Of a stretch of DNA of 64,000 nucleotides, positions 18,401 to 62,520 are shown piece after piece. Made by a program: the position numbers and the translations under genes. Each line of letters opens with the position of its first letter. Positions within the stretch are counted from its first letter, which is position 1. A model generated the notes under the pieces. That model made no database searches, was not told the origin of the DNA, and was given only the letters and a program-made list of their open reading frames with translations. Source of the DNA: Undaria pinnatifida (Eukaryota > Sar > Phaeophyceae > Laminariales > Alariaceae); NCBI GenBank assembly GCA_012845835.1, contig JABAKD010000030.1, positions 13,363,076 to 13,427,075 of the forward strand. Reading direction: 5' to 3'.

Positions 18401-21400
18401 ATTGTTGCGCGACAAGTCGTCCAAGTGCAAATGGGGCATGGTAGCCCGGATGTTTTGACAGGCTGAAAGTAAAGTGTTATGAATGTCGCCAGCTTGATGT
18501 CCGTGTCAACATTTCGGGTGGCCTTGAGCGATGATGTCTGTGAATTGCCGCTTGGTGACGTGCTCTTTCACAGAAGCCAGTCGGCTGCGCAGGCATGTTT
18601 TCTGACATCTGTGGTGGTGGAGGTCCTCGTTTGGTTCCGTGGCTGTAGCCGCACAGGCCGCCTATAGTCCACTGGTGGTCTCGTTTGTGACACTTAGGTA
18701 CTTGGACTTGAGTTCCTTCATCACCTTCTACCCGTCGCCGCTAATGTTACGTTCGCGGTAGGCGTGAGCGGCCACCAGGAGAGCCGTCCCAACAAGGCAT
18801 GGTGCCCAGGTATTTCAGAGTATGTACCCTACTGAATACAGCCTTGAGAATTTTGCAGTGTAAAACAAAAGGCCAAGATAATACAAAATGCTGGAAAAAA
18901 AATGAAACCTTACGTGTCTATCTGTGTACTCTCCGCAGCTAAAATCGTAACAGTCGAAAAAATACTGCGCCTGAATGACACCGCCCGTTTGCGCGATGCA
19001 TCCCAAGGCGCGTCTCGCGCAAAGCCGCGGCCGCTTCGCATTGCTTCGCATTGCTTCGCACAAATCGTCTTCCCCAAAGCGGCAGGATTGACGGCATTGC
19101 GGCGTTTGGGCTCTCACCTCGAGTTCCTTGGCTATGCTAAGGGCCACCGGTACTGCTAGCGCCGCCGCCGCATTGTTGGTGATGAGCTCCGTGCAAATCT
19201 GCGCCGAACGACAGAAGGAACACCAAACAAAGTGTCGAAATGCCAACATCACGATGTTGTTGCTTACTTTCTGTCCATACTTCATCCACTATACGTATCT
19301 TGTGTTCGAAGAACCATCAATTCTACAAAATCGACTCCGCAAATAGAGAAATAAAAACTACTAATGTGTCCAACATGTCCGAAGCACCATTAACCCCGAG
19401 AAAACAACGCTGCATGAAGAGAAGCCCCAATGGTTGCGTCCAAAACGCCTCGCCAACCATTTCGATATCGAAACCAGGGCTCTACATATCGCGTACCCTC
19501 GCAAACGAGCGGGACCAACAACACCGCATCCCCTTCCCCTCCCAGCAGAACGCGAACCCCATCCCCCCCAACAAAAACGGGCAAACGAAGTTCCTCCTTT
19601 ATCTCCTCGAAGACCTTTTGTACAGCCGCACGCAGCCAGCCAGCCCCCATATTTTTGTCCGAAAACAAACCAAAAAAGCCAAAACAAATATGAACGCGTC
19701 CACCTCCCCGACGCCCCGATGCCGTCCATACCATGGTAAACCCGTAGAGGACGTACAGGCTGGTCGAGGCGCTCATGCCGGACTCTCTGATGGCATTCCC
19801 TGCGTAGCTTGCCAGCCCGCTGTTGGATATCGCTTTGCTAAGCCCGAGGGCCGATCCCACCAGCAGGAGCAAAGCCCAGTCTACGTAACCCACGCTTTTT
19901 TTCGCATCCACCCAGCCCCCCACTATTAAAATCCCGGCTGCGGCGAACGCCGCCCGCACCTGGAGAGGACACGGCAGACCGAGGACGCATTGTTTAAAAA
20001 CCAGGACGAACGAATTCATACAAGCGGTAGTAGTGGAGGTGGTTCGCGCCGCCAAGGAAAACATAAACTACAGCATCAAACACCAATGGGACAATTTCGA
20101 TTTTCGGGTATGGTTACGTTCGTATTCGTATTCCCTAGAGCGTATGCTACGTAGAGGGCGAGCAAGATTTTGATGCAGTTTACAAATGAACGAAACGGCA
20201 CAAATCTTGCCGCTGCTCACACCGAAAAAGCGATCAAGGTTGATGTGGTATACAAACGAACGAACCGGAACAAATCTATCTACCCACTGTTCACACCAAA
20301 AAACACGTCGCGGTTGGTGTTACCAGGAGCAGCGCCGGTACCGTTCAGCACACACTTATACACGACAGCCAACCGTAAGAACCTTACACGGAGCGCCACG
20401 GCGCGTCGCCCCCCAGCCGCTCACCATAACAACGTCGGAGAACAGCACCCACCCCAGCATGCCTCCAAACACCAGGAGCGACAAATAATCGTAAGTTCGC
20501 ACAGGCTTCCGAACAGAGCCCACCAGAGTCACCAGATCAAAGTCCCGCGCATCCTTCCACTTCTTCACGAAACCCTCGTTCGTCAGAACCAACACAGTGT
20601 CCCCAGGGACCAAGACCCTCCGCGACGCGTCTACGCCACGCGAATACTCTCGCCCCGGGGCGTCCTCCGGCTCCTGTGTCACCGCGCCCAATTCCGGCGA
20701 CGCTCCTTCGCCTCGTAATGGTTGATCAGCGTCCTCTTCGCCCGGACCAACGGGGCCCAAATACGTGTCCGACATATTTCGACGAGAAACGCGAGTGTAT
20801 TCTCCCGACGCGGTCGACGGCTCGCCCGCTGTTTTTCCGCTGGTGAACGCAGTAGCAGCAGCAGGACGCGCAGGAGATGAACCAGCAGCAGCAGCAGCAG
20901 CAGCAGCTGCAGCAGCAGCGGCCGCAGCGGCATAAGCACCAGCGGTGGCCCAAGCTGCACCACCACCACCACCACCACCTGTGGCACAAGTCTCACCAGC
21001 AGTGGCATGACGTACGCCGACGATGCAGCAACCGTAGTAGCACGAGGACGAGCAGGTGGGGGGGGAGGATGAAAATGAGGCATTTTCGATCCCGGGTGGG
21101 CGTCGTCCCACGAAACGGTTGTTGTCCGACAGGACGAGCTCCGCGAAGAAGTTCCCTTGCACCGCCAGCTGTGAGACACTCGAGCCTAAAATCTTGACTC
21201 CTTCTACGCCGTCGCTGAGCAAAGACGCCTGAAAATCGACCATGGTTGATCTGGGGCAGCTGAGGACAAGGATATCTCCGTCGCGCACCGTTTCCAACGA
21301 AGATACGGGAAATATGTCAGAGTAGCTGCTTCGTTCACCCTGCTCGTTGTTGCCGCGGCTGCCGGTGACCGGCGTATCGGAGCATCGCCCAGGGCTCATA

Positions 21401-24400
21401 TCGACGTTAAGCGGAGCGCGGGTTTTTCGCTGATCTAACACAGACTGGGTCGAGAACGTCGCTCCTTCGTTGCACCCAAGGTCGCCGTCTGAGTCTCTCA
21501 GGCGGTGGATGGCGAAGGGGTAGACACCACTACGTTGCGCAGCAGCAGTAGCAGCAGCAGTATAATCAGAAGTGGCAGCAGCGGAAGAGGTAGCCTTAGC
21601 ACTAGCCGTGTCCCACCCCACTCCCAAACGCTTCCGGCAACCGAGCATACCGCTAGCAGCGGTCACATCCACGTCCACGTCCCTTTCCGACGGTGTCTTC
21701 TCCTCGTCCTCTATCCCCGCAGAATCATCACCGTCATCGCGGTGTTGATCGTACGGGTTTCCGGGAAGTAGCGTTTCATGCGGCCGAACTCTGCCTTCAG
21801 CCTCCAGCGGCAGCTTCCGCCTGATCTTGAACAGGGTTTTCGCTGGGAGACCGAGGCGTGCCAGAACGGGGGAGACCGCCTGTCCGATGAACGAAAAGGG
21901 ACGCGTCACCTGCATCTGGAGAACAGTAAAAGACAGCGGGAGCGGAGTCATCTCGCGGCGGGGGATGCTAGTTAGGGCCATAACTTTTTTGTCCTCTATA
22001 GTGCGGTTGAGATACTAGAGTGCGGAACCATTGGTTAGTATCATAATTTTACGAGTATATTTATTTCAGGACTGGCACGTAGAAATATTGTCCGGCTTGC
22101 GCGAACGAATGCCTTCGGACTCATGTTCGGCTGAAGTATCGATCTTCTTTTCACCTTAGGAGCTTAACATTGCGTTTCACCCCTAGCGTGAGATGACAAA
22201 GCGGTAGAAATTGTGGACATGGGGGGTGAGGTCGGCAAATGTTGCCATGACATGCCGCCTCAAAACGCCAATTGCAATGCCACCGATGAGCCAAATCAAT
22301 CAGCAGTGAGACGAGCCGGGTCGATATCCCCAACGTACACGGCTTGCGCTACGCACGGGATCACGTATGTACTAAGTACTATTTGACTGGTACCTCCGTC
22401 AGCATTTCGTCCCGCCTGTCTTGAGCGCCATCACCCTTAACGCTCCCGTCCCGAGCCCCCCGCGGAAGCACCCTCGGAGCCGCGGCAACGAGGTACAGCA
22501 TGCCCACCAGCCCCAAAGGCAGGCCGATGTAACCCGGCTCAAAGAACCCCAGTTCTTCGATGGTCGCGTCTTCTTTCCCCGCCTCTTTCACCAAGCCCTG
22601 GACAACGAGATTCGTCGACGTGCCGATGATTGTGACAAGGCCGCCAAAGATGCAGGCGAACGAAAGCGGCATCAGAAGCAGGGACGCCGAGAACCCTCGC
22701 GTTACCGCCCAGTCCTTGGTGATGGGAATGAGCAGGGCCACCACGGGCGTGTTATTAAGAAACGCCGAGAGAAAGAAAGCGAGGCCCATGAGCCGCAGCA
22801 ATGCGGTCGTGAAGCTGGTCCGGAGCCCGAAGACCTGCTTGGCAGCCCTGTCGGCGAGACGGGACCTCTCGACCCCCTTGATGACGACGAAGAGGGAGCC
22901 CACCGCGAGGACGCCGGTGTTGTTGAAGCCAGACAGAGCGTCGTCGGTGGAGACAATGCCGGCATTCCAGACCAGCACGAGAGCTAGGAATACCTGTGGA
23001 GGCATGTCCGAGCGTTTGGGGGGGGGGGAACGGGGGGGGTACTCAATTTGTGCATGCCCGTAGTCGTATGACTATAGACCCTCGCTTTGGGGGGGGGGGG
23101 GGGGTTACTAATTTGTTGCTTGCCTTAGGAGGGGGGGGGGGGGGGGGCGTACTCTTTTGTTGCTTGCCTTAGACATTTGACCATACCATTGACCATGCAT
23201 CCCTTTCGAGACGGAGCAGCATTCCTACTCCTAATAGAGACACCTCCAACGTTTGGGCGCTCACTACGCTTTTTCCATGTATGTACACGTATATTTGTCA
23301 TTTTTACCTCTGTTTTCGGTCATATCTCTTCGTGCTCGCACCTTTATCCGAAATGTCAGAGGGGGTGGGCATAATTCGAACCTTGGGGTCACGTTGCCCG
23401 AGGTTTGGGTACGATCCGTGCAGTGTGTCGCGCGTGGCAAGCCCTTTAGCTTTTCTGGCCTTGGGCATATTCAAGGCAAATCCCTGGGTTTCCGCATCCC
23501 CTATCCCCGTGTACGCATCCCCTGTCCCCGTTACGTTCCGTACGTACGGTTTTGATGCAAGCCCAAAAAATATGGGCAAATCATGCGCGCGTACCAGACT
23601 TTTTGCCCTCTCACGAACACAGCCATGAGCACAGCCATGAGCACAGCCAGCACGCAGAGAGCACAACGTGAAAACACTAGCGCCCAGCAGCACCAGCAGG
23701 TAACACCGTGCGTGTGTGTCACATCCATCTGCGCCGTACTGCTGTGGCTAGTTGATTTATTCGGGGCCTGCTTCGTATCTGTAACCGACGACCTGTCTTT
23801 CACTGCTGCTGTGGGCGGCATCTCGCCATTCTGGACAAAACTATTAGGACCGTTTGGATTTTCAGACTTTTGCATCAACGGCCCTTATCAATATGTTTCC
23901 GATGCTCAATTTGTGTGTTCTTCCACCGCGGGCACACCACCCTGCCATGTGTAGACAACAGCAGTGAACATGCAGATAACACAGACAACGCAAGAACCGT
24001 GCCCAGCAGCACAAGCAGCAGCAGGCAACGGCATGCGCGTGAGGCACATCAATACGTGGTGTACTGCTGTTGTGGCTATGTGCTACGTACAGCAGTACAG
24101 CAGTACGTGCAGCAGCAAACCGATGCGTTGGTTCGTACTCGAGCTTCGCTACTTCGCTATACGAGGCAAAGTAAAGTCGTCTCCTCGAGGGGACGATTTT
24201 GAACCGGACGACGATCAAAACAACCTAGCGCGATTTTTCCTGACTCTAGAAAGCAAATAGCAGTGGATATAGGGCTTCTCTGTCTCAGCCGACAATAGAC
24301 GCCCTACAGTTCCTCATTCCGTGCACTTTCTGCGACGAACTGGTGGTGAAGGGGGACAATTGCCCATCCTGGCGTGGATCACTCGTCGTGGAGTTCAAAA

Positions 24401-37973: not shown

Positions 37974-43534
<5,561 letters not shown>

Positions 43535-44044
43535 CTCAAGGGATGGCGGAGGAGCGTGTGTGTTTGTGTCGTGGCTTGAGTGATCGTGGCTTACTATACT
43601 GCTGCTGTGTTGTGTTGTGCTTTGCTTCGTTGCGGAGGGTTTCCATAACATCAACATCGCCAGGTCTTGAAGGCGGAACATTGGGTGAGAGGGGATGAAC
43701 ATTTGAAAATAAGCAACCAACAACCAACTTAAGGTGGGAGATCTGATGCCTTTTGATCAAGTATCACTCACTGGATCGCAGCCGCAGCATATCTACTATC
43801 TAAAATCTATCCGACGTCTAGCTGGCGACACACCCACAGCAGTAGCTCCTTGCTCCTTTGCGCAAGGTGCCCGCTTGCACCGTGGCACCAATTTCGGGAA
43901 CCGACGCCAACAGATTCTCTGAAAAAAAAAAGATACACCCGGCAAAACGCGGCGGAAATACTTCAAACCCACAACGGACAACCGACCCCGCCCACACGCC
44001 TTTTCTGTACGGCTGGCGCAGGACACGCCTGACGTGCAGTGACA
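43535..44044. promoter_or_regulatory. Shared upstream region of a head-to-head gene pair
   Basis: 510 bp separate the start codons of the minus-strand Urc4-like gene and the plus-strand secreted-protein gene. Both promoters and 5' untranslated regions must fit here if neither gene has a further upstream exon. No TATA box or named binding site is convincing. Confidence 0.5.
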
Positions 44045-45863
44045 ATGGCGATGACCAGAGTGCTCGTGGCCGCCTTGTTCGCGTATCTCGCGATCGCGTC
44101 CATCAGCGGGAACGCTCAACCTTTGCCACCACCTGGTGACACTGGTTTGACGTCGTACGTGTTCTCGGTCGAGGTGTTGCTGGACGAATCCGCCGACCCC
44201 GTACTGCTGGGGATCCGCGACGGCCAAACGGTTGCTCAGGTAAAGAATACGCTATCATATATAGCGCGGGTAGGAGTGGTAGTAGATGTCGGCGGTACGA
44301 GCAAGGGGGCTTACCCACGGCATGCAGTACCGGCATAATAGTGTCCTCGTACATACCTGGTATCTGGTACATACATAGAGTTGTACACCAGGTACGTCCA
44401 GAAGCCGTAATATTGTGAAGGAAGAGTGTCCACGTTAATGACGGAGATCCGTCAGCCGATGCGTCCCAAAGATCCTACCGTTTTGAGGAGGGGAGAATGT
44501 TACACTCGCAAGGCTTACCCTGGGCTGGGTAATCGAACGACTTTCTACCCCCGGCTAGCGCGCACAGGTAACACCTTCACCACACAGTACGAGATTCCCC
44601 CAATTTGGCGGACTGAGTAGTGCGGGGTTTCCCGAGTCTAAATACTCGGCGGACAATCGCTTGGCGTGACAAAGGACTTGCATTCATAACCTGGAACGGC
44701 TGCAAGTAAGGCGGTCATTGTTTGCTCTCTGGCCCACCACCGCCTCACTCACTAGGCGACCCCAACTGCATCCAGAAGATGATTTTTTTTGTCTTAAAAC
44801 CTGGAACCTCTGACATCAAGTTTTGTCTAAATGCGCCACTTTTTTACCTGTTACACATTATTTACATACACATACCAGTATATTTTTGTGTGACCGTGTC
44901 CCCATTAATGACGCAGGCCGCTGAAAGGTTTTGCCTCGAGCATGGATTGGACGAGGCGATGCAGACTGTGCTGATGCCGCAGCTGATACAGGTACGCTAT
45001 GTATATATCTGGTACCAGGGTACGAAGTAATGCCTTGTCCTGGCTCATCGCCGAAAGTCTCGAGTAGAACCTCCGGTGACCCACCATCGGGTCGAGCAAC
45101 ATCACAGCATCGTTTTACTTTTCTATTTTATTCGCTTCCATCACCTTTATGTTCCACCTCAATTTGTAGGAGGTTATGCCCTCATCGACCTGCTGGACAA
45201 GTCGCGGTCACAGGTGCCATCCCTTCTCCCCCCCGATACGTGCTGCACAACATATTTGTCCAGATCACGACACAAAGATTTACGCAGTGCCAGAGGAGCG
45301 AGCCGTTGGTACATATCTTTGTGGATTCACCTAAGTCGCGTTGACACCGTGAGTCTGGACAAAAGCCTCACCCTGGTACTGTACGCGCATGTATTGGCAT
45401 TGCCTAGTTTTCTGTCCCCCGCTCTCCATGTACTCGTCAATATAGTCTATGTGTTATCCGCAATTATTTTCACAGAAAACAAAACGAAACGTTAGCTGTG
45501 AGATCGAGATATTCTTGGAAAGTCATGTTAATAAGCTGCGTGTGATACTCCGACCGCGCGTTCAATGATACGATGTATGGAGCAAAGGTTCTCGAGAATG
45601 GGATAGCCGAGGCAATCGGAGACACGAGCCGCGTCGGTGGCGAGTCGGCGTCCCTCAGTCAGGCCCCAGGCCGCGCCATCTCGGCTGCTACAAGCGACAC
45701 CAGGGTTGGTTCGTCTTCTTCCTTCGAACCCCTTATTACGTTGGGTATATCCTTGGATGGGAAGGAGGAGCGCACGTTCGCGTACTACACTGGCCAGGTT
45801 AGTTATAGCCCGCGCACAACACGGTCACGCGATCGCGCAAGGTTATTCTTACGTCGAGATCGC

Positions 45864-45897
<34 letters not shown>

Positions 45898-48800
45898 CGT
45901 CGTCTTCGTCGTTGTTGTTGCTGTCGTTGTTGTTTCTGTTGTTGTTCATCAGCTAACTCGTCGACACAATCTAGTCCGTGGTCACCGGACAGGATTGGAT
46001 CACTCGGGGAGTAGTGAAGCAATACCTCGGAAAACCAAAACAAAGCAGTACACACCTGAAGCATAGGTGTCGCAGCACAAGTCCGCAGCCGCGCAAAAAA
46101 AGGCAGGTATGAATAAGTACTGTAGAACAGCTCAACATCTTCAACACCATCTAAAACCACCTGCATAGACTTACGCGGCGATAAGTACTTGCGCCTACCT
46201 CTACGAAGAGGAGCACGAGACCACATGAAACGTAGACACAGAAAACGTACTTCCCCAATGCGGTGTCATGATAAACCGAAGCAAACCGGAAACGAGGGCC
46301 GAAGAACCGAAGGGAAAAAAAAACGGTTTTGCCCCGGATTTAGGCTTTTGACCGCAACCTTCAACTCAATAACTATGGTAAGGCTAGGGCCGAGGTTGAG
46401 ACACGCGCTATGCTAGGGGGTACAGTACCTTTTTTTTTTTCACCAGCCAACATATTTCTGACCGTCGGACCCCCTAAATTGATGGCCTGAAGAACTACGT
46501 ACTATCGTTGTAACGTCAGCTGTGCGTTACACAATAGGGCTCGCTGCAACGTTTAATGGGCTGAAGTCGTTCTGCGGCTGCCCCCCCAACTTTTCTTGAC
46601 GAAATCGCCGGTTTCAAAACCAGCTCCCGGTCGTATCTCCTAAAATACGTTGTCCCTCGACACCCTCCCCGACGTCATCGATCGATAGACCTTTTGCGCC
46701 ACACAAGAAAATATATGGATACTTTCTTCTTCTCAAATGGTATCCTTCCTTGTGTCGAGCAGCCGTGATACGTTCGTTCAAGAAAAATCGCTGGTTTAGG
46801 AGGGGGGGGCTATCGTAGAATCAGTCGCTGTGGGATTGTTAATGGGGCTAAGCATGTGATTCTTTCCAAAAATCAGGTATTGGGTGGGGTGTATACCTCC
46901 ACAGCCCGAGAAGCCGCAGACAACATAGTCGCCTCACCGCTACCGCAACACCCGTCTTGGTGCTTATTAGTAAATACCTGGCAGTGTCTTAGGTAGCGAG
47001 CCCTCTAGAATCTCCGCACTGAACGCACACAGCTGGAACTGTAGAGCGAGGAAACGACGACGACACGAGCTGGTGATTGACTGTAGCATTGGCCACAGGA
47101 AGTCCTGCTGGGCCAGAGGATGAAGACTTTGGTGCCCAACTCCAAGCAAAAGGGGTTGCATGGTACGACGCGCGCACAACGCGATACCACTCGTGCCACT
47201 AAGAGCTACTGCTATATATGGACGGTTAGTAAGACCGCATTTTTCGTTGTCGCGATCGCAATACCTGGTTCTCAAAGTGGCTACTAAGCATGGCACAGAA
47301 TGAGGGCACGTGCTTGGGGGGGGGGGGCAAGAAGGGGAGACACCTGTGACCACGGCTTGTCCAGAAGGTCGCTCAGGGTAAAAACAACTTACAAGCTGAG
47401 CTGGAAAGCAAAAAAAAAGGAAGACACAAAAAAGCAAAACAACAAAAACGGAGATGTGCGACACATGGTTAAATGTTTCCGGGTTGTTTTCAAGCCGCGT
47501 GCGCTGCGTTCGTCGTAGCGATTCTTGGCCGAGACAAATCTTGCTAACGGGGCGCCCCAAGTGAGGAAATAACCGGAATCGTCAAAATTCCCGTTGTGTG
47601 TGTGTTTTGCTATAAAATTAACTTTTTTTCATGTTTTTCTTTCATTTTGCCTACCCGACCTATGATCTTTGCATTTTTTCATTTATCTTTCTCCCTCTCT
47701 AGAGACATAACTCAAACCAGGGGTCACTGAACAGGCTCTTCGGCCCCTCCCCCACCACGGTACCCGACTTCGCTTTTTTCCGCGAGAATAGTTCAGCACT
47801 TTCTTCCCTCGTCGACTCTCGCCGAAGTGTGCTTACTCACGCCATAAAGCGCTCTCGACAATTGGTTTATCTAGAAAATGTATATCTCCGTTACAACCGA
47901 GATTCGAACCCCTGACTCGAACGTTAGCAGTGTTCAAAGGTCAACCACTACACACACCGGGGCGACCGGCTTTATCCAGTGCCATTTTTTTGTGAGCTAC
48001 CTAGGCCATGAGGTAATTAATCGAGTTGCGCTTTCACTCTGTCTCAACATCGGTTTTGAGTGGGGGATGGACCCAGCCCCTCCGAAAATTGAAGTGTAAC
48101 CCCGACAATAGCTGTGGTAGAGGTGGACCTTTTTTTTTTCATTCTGAGGGTAATCACTTGAGAATATCTCCAACTCACCCCCCCGCGAAACCGATTTCAG
48201 AGCAAAAAAAAAGTGCTTTTGTGATGAGCAAATCTTCCCATAGCCTAGGCACGCCAAATAAAACGTTTTGTTTGCAAAACAAGAATGCCGCAATTCCGAA
48301 CAATTTTCGGTTAAGGTGGCCTAAGGAGTCCCATCATTCAGAAAAAAAAAAGCCGAAAAGTGCCACCTGTACCCTAGCACGCGTCCCCTGCCCTAGCACG
48401 CGTCCCCTGCCCTAGCACGCGTCCCCTGCCCTAGCACGCGTCCCCTGCCCTAGCATGCGTGTCAGATGAGCAACGCTTTCTTCAACGTTGGTGGGGAGCC
48501 GTGAGTATTCCGTTTGGTCACAGCGGCAACCAGACCCTCCCCGCCCTCTTCTGCCAGACGACGATTCCTACTCTCCTGTGCCACTACCACGACGAATCAC
48601 CCAACGAGAAAAAAAAAAACATAAACTAACGCTGTTGAACAACAAACGCCATTGTCGAATTTGGCGCTTCTAAACTCGATTCCACCACACGCCACCTTTG
48701 GGTTGACAGGATCCAGGCGACGCGGCGTCGGCGTTTTGCGTGGAAAACCTTGACCCTTCGAGCCACTCCGAGGCCTTCACCCGGTGCTCAGAAACGCTCT

Positions 48801-51800
48801 CGGCTAGCATTATCCAACGGATCGGCGTTGCCAACAAGGTCGGTTCAAGCCACGACGCTCAGGCCACCCGTCCGCCGCAACCTCAGCCGTGGCAAGGGCA
48901 AGCATCTGCGCAAGGAGGCGAGGAAAAGCGAGGCATTGTCGGGGAGGGGGGCGGGGATGTTGTCCCGAAGCCTTTGCTGACGGTGCCGCTCAACATCAAC
49001 GGGATCGAGACGACGCTAAAGATGTACGAGGGGTCTGGGGCGGAGGGCGTGGCTTACGAATTCTGCCACCAAGAAGAGTTTGCCTTCAAAGGGCCGTCGC
49101 TAAACAGCTGCTACTCTCAGGTGGGTGAACACATGAGCTTCGATAAGGGGAGCACTTTTTGGCTGTTTTTTCCTGACCGACAGGGCTGTTCAACCAACAC
49201 TAACAATGGCATTACTGTTTCACAACATAATCGTTACATATAAAAGTACCAGTAATACTAATAATGGCAATAACGCCAATAAATTGGTCATAGGGTTACA
49301 CTTTCACCTTTGTTCAAAGCCAGTTTTCGGGCAAGGTATAATTGTAGAGTTTCTCGAGGGCGGAGTCTCACAAAATAAGTGCGTCTTAAGGGAGATTTTC
49401 CATGAGTTAGGAACCTAAGAAGAAAGAGGCACACCTAGTAAGCCCTCTGCCGAGACATGAGTCCAACGCTGAACCCCTCTATACTCTTCACACAGCAGAC
49501 AGATCGCGATCTAGATCATACAGATCGTATAGATTATATAGATTATATAGATCATATAGATCGTATATATGTTAGATTTATAGCCACGAACGTGGATAGG
49601 GCTATATAACTAACATGTCATGTGTATCATGCGGATCGTATAGATCATACAGATCCCACAGATCATGCAGGTCATTTAGATCATATAGACCATTGTATAG
49701 ATCATATATATGCTATATTTGCCGCTATAATATGCCATGCAAGGGTCGTACCATACAGATCCCACCCGGAAAGCACGTCCTCAGAAACAGATCCCGCCCG
49801 ACGAACATGTGCAAACAAGAGCCTTGCCAAACACATCCCACCTGGCAATAATTGTAGTGTAGATCGTACAAATAGTTCTACACCAGCGATTTACCCGCCC
49901 CCAACCACATATGTAAGAGACATATCTACCCCAAAACATCTAGATTATACTGAGAATAGAAATGACCTCTCTACAGCGGCGGTATGTGCACTATAGAGGG
50001 AACTACGGGCACCACAAGGCAGGTCATTTAGATCATGTAGACCATTGTATAGATCATATATATGCTGCATTTGCCGCTATAATATGCCATGCAAGGGTCG
50101 TACCATACAGATCCCACCCGGAAATCACGTCCTCAGAAACAGATCCCGCCCGGCAAACACGTGCACACAAGAGCCTTGCCAAACACACCCCACCTGGCAA
50201 TAATTGTAGTGTAGATCGTACAGATAGTTCTACACCAGCGATTTACCCGCCCCTAACCACATATGTAAGAGACATTTCTACCCCGAAACATCTAGATTAT
50301 ACTGAGAATAGAAATGGCCCCTCTATAGCGGCGGATGTGCACTATAGAGGGAACTACGGGCACCACAACGACAACAGGCATTACTCCACATACTTGTCAA
50401 GACGCGGCCTTGAAAGGCCTGCAATTATCTGGTTTGATAGGCCATCTACCGTTCTCGTATGATATCTTGGCGTCATCTTTTCGGGGGAGTCAGGAAAAGA
50501 AACCGAGGTATGCCCCTCGGTTCTCAGTTGCTATCCGGAGCTCTGTGGAAATAACAAAGCTGCCGCTCTACTACGGCTAAGAAAGTGAGTACTCACCGAG
50601 GACCTGCTCAACAGGCAGACCTGCAGGGGACACTCTGTGTCCCCACCAAAAAAGCTTGAGAAATGGTGTCGTCAGCAGGACACCGAGTCATCAAGCGTGG
50701 CTTTGGGTGTAGCCGCGGCAGTGACAATCTCGGCGGTACGCGCGCGGATCAAATCCGAAGAAATAGGCTTGGCGTGGTCACCCGACACAGTCAGTTTGCT
50801 CAGCCGTTCAGCGAAGGAAGCAATATCCACCAGGGAAGGAGTTACTTGCCTCTTGCCTGCCACCACGGTCACCCTTGTATTAGCGCCGGTGTTCCCCTCC
50901 CTTTCGACAAACATTTGCCTTGTCATATAGCGCCTCCTGTGGTTTCTTTGCCGTAGGGCCTCCCCCCGCCCCCCGCCACACCGGCGGTACGCTGACAGGT
51001 TTTTGACGGGTGGTTTGCCTTGTTGTAGGGTCTGCGTTTCCTTCAACTGCTTTTCTTCGCGTTTTCCTGGCGCCATAGCCAGGCCGTTAGAGGTGTGGGA
51101 GTGGGTTTTGAGGAGCCGCATCTTCGACTCATGGTCTAGTTCGTAAAACCGGAGTTTCCCCGAATCTCCCATATTTCTGCGTATGCGGCTCATCAGGATG
51201 GGCTAGTGTTGAGGCACGGCCTTGTAAGGCCTGCAATTATCTCATTTGATAGGTAATTGGCCGTTGTCGTATGATACGTTGGCGTTATATATTCGGGGTA
51301 GTCAGGAAATGAAACCGAGGCATGGACCTCGGTTCTCAGTTGCTATCCGGGGCTCTGTGGAGACAATGAAGCTGCTTCTCTGCTACGGCTAAGAAACTGA
51401 GTACTCACCGAGGACCTGCTCAATTGGCAGATCTGCAGGGGACACTCTGTGTCCCCACCCAAATAACTGAAGATACTGCCACAACTGGCTGTTCCCATGT
51501 GTGCGAATCTACCGCGGCTATAGCTGACAACCGGCACTATTCAACCGGCACTATAGCGGGACCACTTATCTACGTCTCAGATATATGTCTACCCCGAAAT
51601 ATCTAAAACATGGGATTATAACATGTCCGACGTGTACAAACTAAAACTTCGCTCCGTCTCGTCCCTTCCCGTCCCTGTTTCAGATTGTGGAAATCGCGAT
51701 TCGAGCCATTACGGTGTACAACTCGCAAAAAACCGGAGAAGTCAGCAGGCGGGCGGGGGCAGCAGACCCGTTCACGTTTAAAGTGCCTGTCACGCTCGCG

Positions 51801-54800
51801 GGTCTTTTGCTCCACGCTGAGTACAGGGTGAGTGTTTGTCGGCGATGCAGCAGTGGAGCATACAGTAGCTGCCGCTGATAAAAAGCTTGGGGGGTAGTGC
51901 AAACACAGAGCAATTGGATATCCCACAGCACAGGCGTTGAAGCTGCCTGTACTGACGGTTTCGTGTTCACGTAAACCCCCTTTCCCCGGCGGACAAGACC
52001 CAGTATCTTGCGCTCTTACCCTACACTATGCTAATATCCGGGCAAGTGTCACCCTGGAGCGTTTATTCTGAAGCTCCTCGGGTCGTGGGTAGCATTGGGG
52101 GGGTCATTTGTGGGGCCGCTGTTAGTAGCGTCTCGTGGTCACTCGCGCAAGTGACCCCCCGTTCCTTTTGCGGTCTTAATTTTTTGTGCTGTTTGTTGTT
52201 TGCCGTATGAAACTGCGATGGGATGGAGTGCTTCGCCGCGCCCAACAAACCGCCTGCAGTCTTTCTTTCGTTGAGGTACAGAGTCACTCGGACGAGTGGT
52301 AATTACCTAGCAGGGAAAAGGAGGTGTGATAGAGTATGATACTACAATCCCCTAGCCGTGGTCCTCGCTCGAGGAGCCCTCTGCCCCAACCATACGCTGA
52401 TTTTGAGAAAAAACGAAAATGCCAACCCGGTCAGCAACAAAACCGTGGCCCGGGTGCATAACGAACAACATCGAAAACACACACACTTGTTTTTTGGCTC
52501 ATCCCTGCTATTTTCTTCGCACTTTTCCTTTCTCCTTCTCCCTCCCTAGACGTAACTCAGGTCCAGGGCCACTACAGTATAAGCAGGCTCTTCTTCCCAC
52601 TCCCCACCACGGTGCACGCCTTCATATTTATCGCGAGGAGATTCCACCTGTTTCTTCCTTCGTCGACTTGCATCGAAAAAAAATCATACACTGAATTCCT
52701 AAAATGTCGGATGCCTCCTTCTCGAAGGATCTCGTTCGTCAGTGAGAAAATCTTTGGGCTAAAATGTTGCAACCACCACCATACCGCGGCTCTCGTACCA
52801 TACCCGACCGGTTGATATACAGTACGGGTGATCCCTCTATAGTGCCCGTATGTGCACTATAGAGGGGAATATCCCCACTACGGCGGCAACCGGCACTACT
52901 CCGATCACCGCCACTCCTGGTTGTTCCCTTCTGCGCGAAGCGATTTCGCAGGCACTCTAGCGGGCAACCGGCACTACTCAACCGGCACTACAGAGAGACC
53001 ACTGATGTACCGTCGTCAATAAGAGTGTTAGGAATTCTCTCCGCACCTCGTTTCACACGCAGATCCTCACTCTTGCGTGGCACTAGCTTCGTGTACCCGC
53101 CCGAAAATGAGGACGAAGTAGAACAGGTGCAGCAGATTACGAATCGAACCCGCCTGCCGCCTTCGCTATTGCGCATCCCGCCGCCGCTCCTAAATGACAC
53201 CAACCAGACTCAAACGAGTTGTCGGGGGTGACGATTCAGAACCCCGACACCCCGCCCTCGATTTTATTTCCGATCACCGCCGCCACCGCCGTTCTTTGAT
53301 CTGACACCTCCCAGACAAGCGAGACCCCGGCCGTCTCTGCGCTGCGGTTCTGCGGCCCGAACCTCCCGGCCATAGAGTCTGCTCTAGGCATCGACAACAC
53401 CGAGGAGATTGCAGGACACGATGACGACGTGGCGACGGAGGAAGACGTGGCGGCATCAGGAGGAAGAAGAGGAGGGGCAGCAGGAGGAGGTTCTCTGGCG
53501 GAGGGGAGGGAGAGCTTGAAAGAGGCGTGTGCGATGGTGGTGGAAGATGCGATTAACGCCGTGCTCCTCGGGCTCCGCGAAAGGGTGAGGGGTGGTTTTG
53601 GAAGGAATGACTCCGCCGGAATATGTCTTCCTTCATATATGTGACGATTCAGACTCCTGCCCCTCCCCCCCTCCGGAATGCTCCACTCAGGCGGTTCTTA
53701 ATGAGATGTAGCTCACCCTTTACGAGATTCGCCGAACACCTCACGGCGCTTCGTGCTTGATATCCACGAAGTAGATACTCGCCTACAGCAGTACGCATTG
53801 CAGTATGGTAGGAGCCCCCCGGTAGGGCGGTGGTATGATAGGCCAGAGCAATATGACCGCCTTATAGAGGGAAGCCGCCTTGTTCGTTTCAGGTTAGGAG
53901 AGCGGTTCCCAAGGCGCGCCAAGCGATTTTGACCGCCGTGTATCGGGATATCGCACTAATCAGACCGCCTTATTGGGGGAGCTCTTCTGTATATAGCATA
54001 CCTATCTAGTACCCACATTATAGTCTCTGGAAGAGGCCACATCGGCAAAACAAATAAAGCCATTCGGTGCTGTCACCCAAATGCAAGAAAGCACGACAAG
54101 GAGTGCCGAAGACCACCTCACAAGCGGTCCTTAGCAGGATGCAGCCAACCCTGCATGCGACTCCTCCAATATCTCGCGGCGCTTCGTGCTTGAAGCAAGC
54201 AATTTCTGCCTGGTCGATGAGAACCCGACGTACTCCCTCCCGACAATGTAGGGGTGTGAAGGGTTTACGGTGTACCAGACTGCGGCCATGCATGGTAACG
54301 ATTTCACTCCGCAGTCGTCGTCATCACTTCTCTCCTGAAACCCATACCCGAAACCCATTCAAAGTGCGAGTTTCATATCTCCCGCCCCCCCTTTCCCCCC
54401 CTCCTCCGCCCCCCCCCCCCCCTCGCCTTTTCGTCGAACCTCCTAGCCGATACCCGGTCCAAGATTTTGCTATTTATGTCACCCCGTCCCCTCCACCCGG
54501 CCGCCTCCCCCATTACCTCTTCCCGGAACTCCCTCCCCATAGTATCTTTCAACATTTAACGATTCAACTTCACCCCCCCCGTGCCCCCGCCCCCCCACAC
54601 CGCCGGCACCGCCGCCGCCATCGATTTTCGCCTGAACTGCCTTCCCGAAAAGCGCTCCCAGGGTGTAACGCCAAGGTGTAATGATTAAGATTTCCCAGGC
54701 TCCCGGACTACGGTCATGCATGCATGACATGACTACGCTACCCTCATCGCCTCTTGTTTGAAGCCCTAGCCGACGCCCCTTCCACCGTGCTATGATCCAA

Positions 54801-55414
54801 AATTCACGCTCTTGTGGCAAATCAAAAGCGAGTAGAGCTCGCATAACGGGAGAACGTGAAATTCACAAGGAGGAACGGGATGTGTTAGGGTAGAAGATTA
54901 ACAGAATTGACGAATGTGACACATGTAACAGATGTCTGGTACGCTAAATACTAGCGTGGAAACGATCGCTATCTAAGGGGACAGGTGGTGGCCACGGAAT
55001 GCGAGACAGGAAGGCGAAAATGTACGCAAAATGTTATAATGTAACATATATATAGAAAAAACGTAAAAAGCGCCCAAAATGTGGACGGTGTCTTTACTAG
55101 GAGTAGGAACGGTGTTCCATCCCCAAAATGGTGCGTGGTCAAAACTCAAATGACTAAGGCAAGCCACGAATGAGTACTCCCTCCTCTCCCCCCCACACCG
55201 CCGCCGCCATCGCCACGGCCACCGCCTCCGCGATCCCTCTGCCAAGGTTTTGGAGGCGGAAATAGCTCAGGCTAACGCCACAGAGTCCCTCTACAACGAT
55301 GACGAGTGGTCCAGAGAGCAGAGCATCGCAGCAGCAGTCGCGGGAGAAGGAGGATTGGATGGAGTACTGGCCTCGGTGGAAAGTACTACTGGTATTACAG
55401 ATGCCACAACGTAA
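44045..55414 (+). CDS. Predicted secreted four-module repeat protein, seven exons, about 490 aa
   Basis: Plus-strand exons are 44045-44239, 44917-44991, 45588-45797, 48710-49120, 51684-51827, 53315-53584 and 55247-55414, all GT/AG and phase 0. The first about 25 residues (MAMTRVLVAALFAYLAIAS) form a signal peptide. The rest is four diverged modules: a hydrophobic strand (VFSVEVLLD, LITLGISLDG, LLTVPLNING, FTFKVPVTLAG), an acidic/Gly turn, a helix with A-x-x-F-C (F70C71, F169C170, F278C279, F357C358), then an amphipathic helix (VLENGIAEAI, IVEIAIRAIT, VLEAEIAQAN). The shape recalls short beta-plus-helix domains such as PFU-like modules, but I cannot name a family or function. Exon 7 is the least certain and further exons are possible. 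ATG at 44045 is preferred because it begins the signal peptide. Introns are full of repeats. Confidence 0.7.
45798..46569. other. 5' part of intron 3 of the secreted-protein gene
   Basis: A TTG/TCG microsatellite lies at 45866-45950 directly after the donor. The rest is unremarkable. Confidence 0.4.
46570..46820 (+). mobile_element. MITE copy B (TTCTACG family)
   Basis: Left end TTCTGCGGCTGCCCCCC, right end GGGGGGGCTATCGTAGAA; the two are imperfect inverted repeats. The body (CGAAATCGCCGGTTTC ... GTCATCGATCGATAGACC ... GTGTCGAGCAGCC) matches copies at 55609 and 62029. About 250 bp, non-coding. Confidence 0.65.
47300..47450 (+). repeat. Dispersed repeat, partner of 1440-1600
   Basis: Shares GGGGAGACACCTG-GACCACGGC, TTGTCCAGAAG and a following A-rich tract with 1490-1570. 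Confidence 0.4.
47885..47970 (-). repeat. tRNA-like sequence (pseudogene or SINE head)
   Basis: On the minus strand, GTGTGTAGTGGTTGACC resembles a tRNA D-arm/A box. About 40 bases on, AGGGGTTCGAATCTC is a good B box with T-loop. The T stem pairs at only about three of five positions and the acceptor ends do not pair, so it is not a working tRNA gene. No second copy is evident in the window to prove a SINE. Confidence 0.45.
48371..48460 (+). repeat. 19-bp minisatellite
   Basis: Almost five copies of CCCTAGCACGCGTCCCCTG in tandem, the last diverging. It is in intron 3, about 250 bp upstream of exon 4. Confidence 0.85.
49671..50374 (+). repeat. 352-bp tandem duplication in intron 4
   Basis: Copy 1 (49671-50022) and copy 2 (50023-50374) are highly similar from GTCATTTAGATCAT to ACGGGCACCACAA. 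The block before them (49500-49690) is a run of TAGATC/ATATAGATC words. The frames that look like a repeated 120-aa protein here result from the duplication. Confidence 0.8.
50395..51457 (-). mobile_element. Short LTR-flanked retroelement remnant
   Basis: Direct repeats of 251 bp each lie at 50395-50645 and 51207-51457. Their ends read TGTYRAG...GTGTCCCCA on the plus strand (TG...CA). They enclose about 560 bp with a minus-strand coding-like stretch related to a retroelement remnant at about 58745-58890. No protease, reverse transcriptase or integrase is present, so the copy is internally deleted or non-autonomous. The two repeats differ clearly, implying an old insertion. A clean target duplication is not seen at these borders. 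A solitary copy of the repeat lies at 36004. Confidence 0.6.
52830..53010 (+). repeat. CGGCACTAC-rich degenerate repeat
   Basis: CCGGCACTACTCAACCGGCAC, GTGCACTATAGAGGG and AACCGGCACTACTCC recur here and in looser form at 51530-51560 and 62700-62935 (reverse complement). Intron 5 of the secreted-protein gene. Confidence 0.5.
53810..53985 (+). repeat. Dispersed repeat, paired with 61590-61750
   Basis: Both copies contain GGCCAGAGCA, ACCGCCTT/GGCCGCCTT with GGGAAGCCGCCTT, GCGAAGCAATTTTGG/GCCAAGCGATTTTGA and a closing TTGGGGGAGCTC/TTGGGGCACTCC. Class unknown. Confidence 0.5.
54850..55060 (+). mobile_element. LINE 3' fragment, second copy
   Basis: The plus strand shares CAAGGAGGAACGGGATGTG, AAACGATCGCTATC and GGTGGTGGCCACGG with the reverse of the LINE fragment at 24830-25290. 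Translation gives HKEERDVLG and GGGH with several stops. It is the same C-terminal region, more decayed, in intron 6 of the secreted-protein gene. Confidence 0.5.
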
Positions 55415-55608
55415 CGGCAGTGCTGTTGGCGTATAGCTCGTGCACTGGCGTACAGCCTCTAATAAGTGCACGTACATGGAGGCGCGGGGGGGCGGGGGGC
55501 GTGAGGGGGAGCGAACACCGCTATTCATAGCGAGACACTTCGAGCCGTGCTTGAGCTGCTTGCAGTCGGGTGTCGGGTGCGCGGTGTAGAGGTTTCAGTA
55601 GCGTGTCG

Positions 55609-55860
55609 TTCCACGGTAGCCCGCCCCCAACTTTTTTTTCACGAAATAATGGCCGGTTTTGAAACCAGCGCCCGGCCGTATCCCCTGAAGTATGTATGGT
55701 GTCCCTCGACACCCCCGACGTCATCGTTCGATAGTTGTTTGCAAACAGGAAACTGTGTGACGATGTGTTCTTCATAGCACCCTTCCTCGTGTCGAGCAGC
55801 CATCAAACGTTCGTTACACCAAAAATCGGTGGTTTTTTGGGAGGGGGGGCAATCGTAGAA
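55609..55860 (+). mobile_element. MITE copy C (TTCTACG family)
   Basis: Left end TTCCACGGTAGCCCGCCCCC, right end GGGGGGGCAATCGTAGAA, body as in copies at 46570 and 62029. About 250 bp, non-coding, just after the last exon of the secreted-protein gene. Confidence 0.65.
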
Positions 55861-56017
55861 TCAGTCTGGCCCCGAGTCCTTCGTACTCGGTGGATATTTT
55901 TGCTGTTTGTACTGGGTAGGGTTAACGGGCATGAGCAAGGTCAACGAATAGGGTGAACGGGTATAGCCCAACGATCCGATGGTGTAATCTAACGGCCCCA
56001 TGGCTTGCTTTTTTTAT

Positions 56018-61379: not shown

Positions 61380-62520
61380 GTTGGGGGCGTTTGGCCTCTG
61401 CGGGCTGCCCTCCAATACACCGTGGCACGCGCGATCGAAGCATCACATACATGCAGCCGACACAGAAAGATGAGTGTAGACGAAATAATCGATCTCTCAC
61501 AGCCGAGGTGTGTGTGTGTCTTTCTTTCTGATTGCGACAAAAAAATGTAGCTGTGTGGTTCGCTGGTTGATATGATGCCATCACAGCAGCAATATATACC
61601 CGGTCTCCCAGTAAGGGGGCGATGTGCCAGAGCAGCGTGGCCGCCTTGTCGGGGGAAGCCGCCTTATTCATTCCATGTTATCAATAGTGCAGTGCCTCAG
61701 CCGTGCGAAGCAATTTTGGCCGCCTTTGTTGGGGCACTCCTACTCCACGCCTTATCTCAGGGGGACCCCTCTGCTGCGTATGACAGCACCGTTTTGATAA
61801 TAACTTGTACCGCAAACGCGTGCTTGCTGTAAGTAAACGCGTAGCAAGGGTAGACTATAGCAAGAAAATCGTAACACAAAATGGAAAGCACTTAATCCGT
61901 CTTCTTCGTGGATAAGAGAACAGCTGCGCAGCCCCCACCTCCCTCCAACCCAACGGCCAGATCCACACACAGAGTCATGATTCACGATACCTAAATATAG
62001 ACCATGTATGTATCGTGTATGGGAGTCGTTCTACGGTAGCCCCCCCCCAACTTTTCTTGACGAAATGGCCGGTTTCAAAACCAACGCCCGGTCGTATCTC
62101 CAGAAATACGGTGTCCCTCGACACCCCCGACGTCATCGATCGATAGACCTTTTGCACACGAGAAAACATATGGATACTTTCTTCTTCTCAAATGGCATCC
62201 TCCCTCGTGTCGAGCAGCCATGAAACGTTCGTTCAAGAAAAATCGCTGGTTCAGGGGGGGGGCTATCGTAGAATCAGTAATTATGGTATGCAGCCGTTAA
62301 ACAACGCAGGAATCGGCGCGTGTTGGGCCAGCTGCCTCTGGCCTCGAGGCGGGCTAGGTCCAACCACAACAGGACGTACCGATTGCCGGCGGAATACACT
62401 ATGCCCCTCAATTAACCCCTCCCCACCCCCCCTTCCCCAATGCAAAGCCGAAGCATGCCCTTCTATCATAAAACAGTTAAAATCAACTAACCCGCATGAG
62501 GTCACAATTGCCCTCGCGTA
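61380..62520 (+). repeat. Composite dispersed repeat, copy 1 (with insertions)
   Basis: The family-B end (61430-61515), an intervening insertion-like stretch (61560-61830, related to 53810-53985) and the blocks TCCGTCTTCTTC, GTTGGGCCAGC-GCCTCTGGCCTC and ATGCCCCTCAATTAACCCC recur in the same order at 62990-63690 without the intervening pieces. The MITE at 62029-62273 also interrupts this copy. Confidence 0.55.
62029..62273 (+). mobile_element. MITE copy D (TTCTACG family), best preserved
   Basis: Left end TTCTACGGTAGCCCCCCCCC, right end GGGGGGGGCTATCGTAGAA: good inverted repeats with C/G runs. 245 bp, non-coding. The flanks (GAGTCG / TCAGTA) show no obvious target duplication, so the true ends may lie a few bases further out. 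Confidence 0.7.

Follow-up and report, generated by a model that had tools for sequence, protein, structure and literature searches.

Gene model and genomic surroundings

We analysed a window of 64,000 nucleotides from the genome of the kelp Undaria pinnatifida (C38:13363076-13427075; genome of 511,146,479 bases in 68 contigs), with a G+C content of 47 to 59% in 4-kb steps. Joining seven exons on its plus strand (44045-55414) yields one open frame of 490 amino acids, interrupted by six introns of 677, 596, 2912, 2563, 1487 and 1662 bases (introns 1 to 6), all of which are bounded by GT-AG and lie in phase 0. The exons and the parts of the protein that they are predicted to encode are as follows, with coding scores in bits per codon:

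44045..44239, plus strand: exon 1, signal peptide and start of module 1 (beta hairpin); coding score 0.27; donor CAG/GTAAAG
44045..44116, plus strand: predicted signal peptide MAMTRVLVAALFAYLAIASISGNA, read from the sequence by eye
44917..44991, plus strand: exon 2, module 1 (helix 1, containing AAERFC, and start of helix 2); coding score 0.04
45588..45797, plus strand: exon 3, module 1 (remainder of helix 2), linker, module 2 (hairpin); coding score 0.15
48710..49120, plus strand: exon 4, module 2 (helices with FC...C), linker, module 3 (hairpin, helix 1 and first part of helix 2); coding score 0.11
48968..49120, plus strand: portion of module 3 in exon 4 (KPLLTVPLNINGIETTLKMYEGSGAEGVAYEFC...CYSQ), from translation; hairpin pLDDT about 75, C-terminal part low
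51684..51827, plus strand: exon 5, module 3 (remainder of helix 2), linker, module 4 (hairpin); coding score 0.27
53315..53584, plus strand: exon 6, module 4 (helix 1 with ALRFC, insertion rich in acidic residues and Gly, Cys-containing candidate helix 2); coding score 0.17
55247..55414, plus strand: exon 7, C-terminal tail and stop codon; coding score -0.02

With scores trained on 442 codons from two neighbouring Pfam-matching genes, the seven exons (-0.02 to 0.27) surpass all 346 open intron windows (overlapping, 150 bases each; maximum -0.05). The margin of exon 7 over the best of these is narrow (-0.02 versus -0.05), and the best reverse-strand frame of exon 6 scores 0.14, close to the 0.17 of its forward frame. 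That the predicted model fuses exons from two or more genes, or takes in non-coding pieces, is nevertheless highly improbable: six phase-0 GT-AG junctions hold one frame and a continuous module pattern, and every exon outscores the open intron windows, against which can be set the length and repeat content of introns 3 and 4 (2.9 and 2.6 kb), the narrow margin of exon 7, two acceptors (AAAG and CAAG) of less common types, and the fact that the structure is a prediction from sequence. The seven-exon, all-phase-0 model proposed in the first-pass annotation therefore stands, and, judged from its sequence, the locus is a real gene encoding a real, diverged repeat protein.

Querying the 511-Mb genome with the whole protein (E<=10) recovered only the gene's own seven exons and no close paralogue, in a search whose first look misses diverged copies. 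Searches for PHROGs, Rfam, tRNA and phage matches gave none, and the module 1 and consensus queries picked up 11 and 73 pattern stretches, respectively, in IMG/VR, with no confirmed relative among them.

Upstream of the module gene and on the opposite strand lies an exon of a DUF1688 gene (42881-43756, minus strand; Pfam E 2.4e-63), and exons of a CitMHS-type (citrate) transporter occupy 19390-23071, also on the minus strand (Pfam E 2.9e-33, and a second match of 3.1e-6 that is below the cut-off). Several repeats are present in the window. Intron 4 (49667-50368, 50405-51463) carries a 351-base near-tandem duplication with 95% identity and a 247-base repeat with 87%. A repeat of about 260 bases occurs at 46565-46825 (intron 3), 55605-55866 and 62024-62278, with a shorter piece at 545-669, the copies being 75 to 90% like that of intron 3. 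The stretch 52508-52668 is one copy of a dispersed repeat of high copy number (40 scored of 3148 first-look candidates), and 47660-47817 is 71% similar to that stretch.

Four modules and their cysteines

The protein had been described as consisting of four modules, and an FC motif is indeed found in all four (AAERFC, AASAFC, VAYEFC and SALRFC in modules 1 to 4, at residues 70, 169, 278 and 357). Over the 22 residues preceding FC, the summed pairwise similarity of the modules exceeds that of 20,000 out of 20,000 shuffles, while the six pairs taken singly give shuffle fractions of 0.011, 0.060, 0.032, 0.016, 0.030 and 0.16. In a leave-one-out profile test with FC held fixed, the real scores of modules 1, 2, 3 and 4 were reached by 0, 0, 476 and 2 of 3000 shuffles. 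On this sequence evidence, modules 1, 2 and 4 are clearly related to one another, whereas the kinship of module 3 by sequence alone is weak and, since 476 shuffles match its score, draws chiefly on its place in the protein, its hairpin pattern and its cysteine spacing. The four-module description thus holds for modules 1, 2 and 4 and less firmly for module 3. Of 1010 open segments in the window, six score at least 7.0 bits against the module profile and all six are the gene's own exons.

Seven cysteines are present in the protein, four of them within FC and the others at residues 186, 294 and 417, in the apparent helix 2 of modules 2, 3 and 4. This helix-2 column follows the FC cysteine at a distance of 16 residues in modules 1 and 2 and 15 in module 3; in module 4 the acidic/Gly-rich insertion extends the distance to 59, and the assignment of helix 2 in that module is uncertain. 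Module 1 has no cysteine at the helix-2 column, which was placed there by spacing. In our own alignment each of the seven cysteines agrees with the module pattern, which suggests a disulfide between alpha1 and alpha2.

Relationship to the PFU domain

The first-pass annotation recognised no known family in the modules, a statement partly overturned by a PFU-like signal in both Pfam and profile-profile comparison. At E<=1 the whole protein matches a single Pfam model, PFU (PF09070, PLAA family ubiquitin binding; E=0.0013). The PFU score of 19.3 bits for the whole protein, or 16.4 bits for module 1 alone, is below the gathering cut-off of 26.2, and the match spans profile positions 57-97 of 113 rather than the full-length domain. 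Modules 2, 3 and 4 taken singly (module 4 without its helix-2 part) have no PFU match at E<=1.

Aligned by hhalign to a PFU profile made from kelp PLAA, yeast Doa1 and human PLAA, the four-module profile (module 4 without its insertion) gives a probability of 79 and a P of 1.5e-5 over 35 columns, and an uncut profile of the hairpin plus helix 1 gives 62.5 and 7.3e-5. None of 600 column shuffles, 300 on each side, attains the former score (best 15.6 versus 28.5). The PFU core pattern of hairpin and helix 1 is accordingly found by profile-profile comparison, although module 3 and yeast Doa1 do not rise above shuffles when taken on their own. For the modules against kelp PLAA, shuffle fractions (20000 shuffles each) are 0.00035, 0.00125 and 0 for modules 1, 2 and 4, and 0.32 for module 3. 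With an ordinary HMM of the four modules the signal is less strong: shuffles score as high as kelp PLAA in 2 of 2000 cases and as human PLAA in 1 of 2000, and the PFU of yeast Doa1 does not stand out, its score being equalled by 50 of 2000 shuffles and by 58 segments of the window.

What the modules have in common with PFU is a hairpin followed by the pattern (Y)...(D)P..AA..F..(N).L. Modules 1, 2 and 4 align with kelp PLAA without gaps across hairpin strand 2 and helix 1, and modules 1 and 2 also align with the yeast and human PFU fragments. They differ from it in their sub-threshold score and partial coverage, in occurring as four tandem copies, and in the cysteine pair and signal peptide of the protein. 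PLAA/Doa1 proteins are cytosolic and have a WD40-PFU-PUL architecture. In contrast, Pfam detects neither WD40 nor PUL in the kelp protein, which has a signal peptide by eye. Going by sequence likeness, we regard the modules as related to PFU, yet not as PFU members by the Pfam standard.

Alternatively, the modules may be an independent small secreted fold of a lineage-specific extracellular protein without ubiquitin-type recognition, resembling PFU through a common hydrophobic pattern. Besides the sub-threshold Pfam score and the indistinct yeast Doa1, this reading draws on a weak match of the consensus query to another family, WNK CCTL2 (E 0.024), and on the structural comparisons: a sequence search with the whole protein found no solved structure, and the module profiles found only designed repeat proteins and unrelated chains in the PDB. 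AlphaFold2 without an alignment predicts the hairpin in the exon-4 part of module 3 (pLDDT near 75), followed by a third strand in the place expected for helix 1 and a remainder of low confidence; for the whole of exon 4 the result is worse than for the module 3 part, with a mean pLDDT of 65 and 48 for the incomplete modules. These low-confidence models of truncated modules give no support to the helical reading and, given the truncation, would be compatible with it. The profile-profile score, which far exceeds 600 column shuffles, argues against an independent fold, and we consider this alternative doubtful.

Ordinary PFU exons are found in the same genome on C18, and two PFU-like loci came to light through a consensus query written by hand:

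C19:556200-575900, minus strand: exons read by eye as WD40 repeats (L025/L027), then a PFU-like exon (L020)
C36:11367700-11377600, minus strand: one exon encoding a lone PFU-like module that has FC...C (L021/L026); consensus-query E 0.048

The C19 exon contains AAAFC (consensus-query E 0.0036; PFU E 0.0048) and, apart from the module gene's own exons, scores highest against the module profile, at 12.8 bits with none of 2000 shuffles reaching its score. It has A-A-A-F-C within a PFU-like stretch in common with the tandem-module gene, and differs in that one module is seen, preceded by WD40-like exons and not by a signal peptide; a Pfam scan of one segment upstream of this exon gave no match. 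Since FC also occurs in this WD40-like gene, FC alone is no marker of secretion. The C36 module resembles those of the tandem gene in its hairpin, FC and further C, with signal-peptide-like and Cys-rich open frames upstream (adjacency only) in which Pfam finds nothing above cut-off. It differs in being one module in a single exon with a low score against the four-module profile, attained by 50 of 2000 shuffles and 15 window segments, and without a PFU match in Pfam; as a genome query it returned itself and noise only. A further candidate, L024 (E 9.1), was rejected as noise.

Intron positions and the origin of the modules

The modules had been proposed to descend by tandem duplication from a unit with two introns, the first at a common site in modules 1, 2 and 4 and the second common to modules 1, 3 and 4. 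The first intron lies 4, 8 and 11 codons upstream of the F of FC in modules 1, 2 and 4, respectively, and a MAFFT alignment up to FC is gap-free across this stretch, with kelp PLAA fitting the identical register. The offsets of -4, -8 and -11 in a gap-free stretch therefore place these introns at three different sites in one loop, contrary to the proposal. The second intron lies 21, 20 and 79 codons downstream of the F in modules 1, 3 and 4. Those of modules 1 and 3 coincide when measured from the Cys column of helix 2 (assigned by spacing in module 1), and this part of the claim survives. In module 4 the intron falls past SLKEACAMVVEDAINAV, which matches helix 2 of module 3, and is displaced about 15 codons further on than in modules 1 and 3.

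Under random placement in a 100-codon unit, three sites would fall within 7 codons in 1.6% of cases and two at one codon in 1.0%; these post hoc figures are suggestive, though selected afterwards. Pairwise comparison of the introns revealed six short similar stretches, the longest of which (165 bases, introns 3 versus 5) we rejected as intron homology, as it is a dispersed repeat matched by all 40 that were scored of the 3148 first-look candidates.

Tandem duplication of the modules is supported by the leave-one-out tests, but a two-intron unit with two losses is borne out only through the second intron of modules 1 and 3. An ancestral two-intron unit is possible; the full scheme, in which one such unit was duplicated in tandem with both introns ancestral, two later losses and some border shifts, strikes us as rather unlikely. 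It would account for the uniform phase 0 of the six introns, for the coincidence in modules 1 and 3 and for first introns within 7 codons of each other. It is at odds with three different first-intron codons in a gap-free stretch, with the displaced second intron of module 4 and with the paucity of intron-intron similarity, and the remaining proposed matches require sliding of 9 to 12 bases or a 15-codon shift. Intron sliding is described in a mammalian study as very rare, if existing at all (PMC7730772). The intron pattern itself is thus less remarkable than first claimed.

A putative secreted PFU-like protein

The explanation to which we incline, at about even confidence, is a protein of the secretory pathway with four tandem modules related to the PFU core, serving as a multivalent extracellular or luminal binding scaffold. 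The exon structure, the repetition of the module, the PFU-like profile and the arrangement of the cysteines are the sequence-based parts of this explanation. The protein would enter the secretory pathway carrying four tandem beta-hairpin/helix/helix modules akin to the core of the PFU domain, and the small fold of modules 2 to 4 may be stabilised outside the cytosol by a disulfide that links the FC cysteine of helix 1 to the cysteine of helix 2. The modules probably derive from an old duplication, with one intron position common to modules 1 and 3 and the other introns being near-coincidences or independent. Four putative binding modules on flexible linkers would suggest multivalent binding, so that the protein might act as a multivalent scaffold in the secretory lumen or the cell wall. 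Because ubiquitin is a cytosolic modifier, a secreted PFU-like protein would, by analogy, most likely bind a partner other than ubiquitin, and the surface with which PFU contacts ubiquitin may have been reused for an extracellular one.

PFU is counted among the ubiquitin-binding domains (PMC7226360). It forms part of the Cdc48 cofactor Doa1, and a second paper reports that the Doa1 PFU also binds the N terminus of Wss1, with Wss1 and ubiquitin binding to Doa1 being mutually exclusive (PMC4559962). Among open-licence PMC articles, we found none combining "PFU domain" and "alga".

The interest of the locus lies in a possible secreted, disulfide-bearing PFU-like branch. Tentatively, a brown-algal branch of the PFU fold may have left the cytosol, gained a stabilising disulfide and multiplied in tandem, giving rise to a secreted protein with a multivalent recognition role in the lumen or cell wall. 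If true, the PFU fold would have been reused extracellularly in a lineage that became multicellular and evolved a cell wall of its own.
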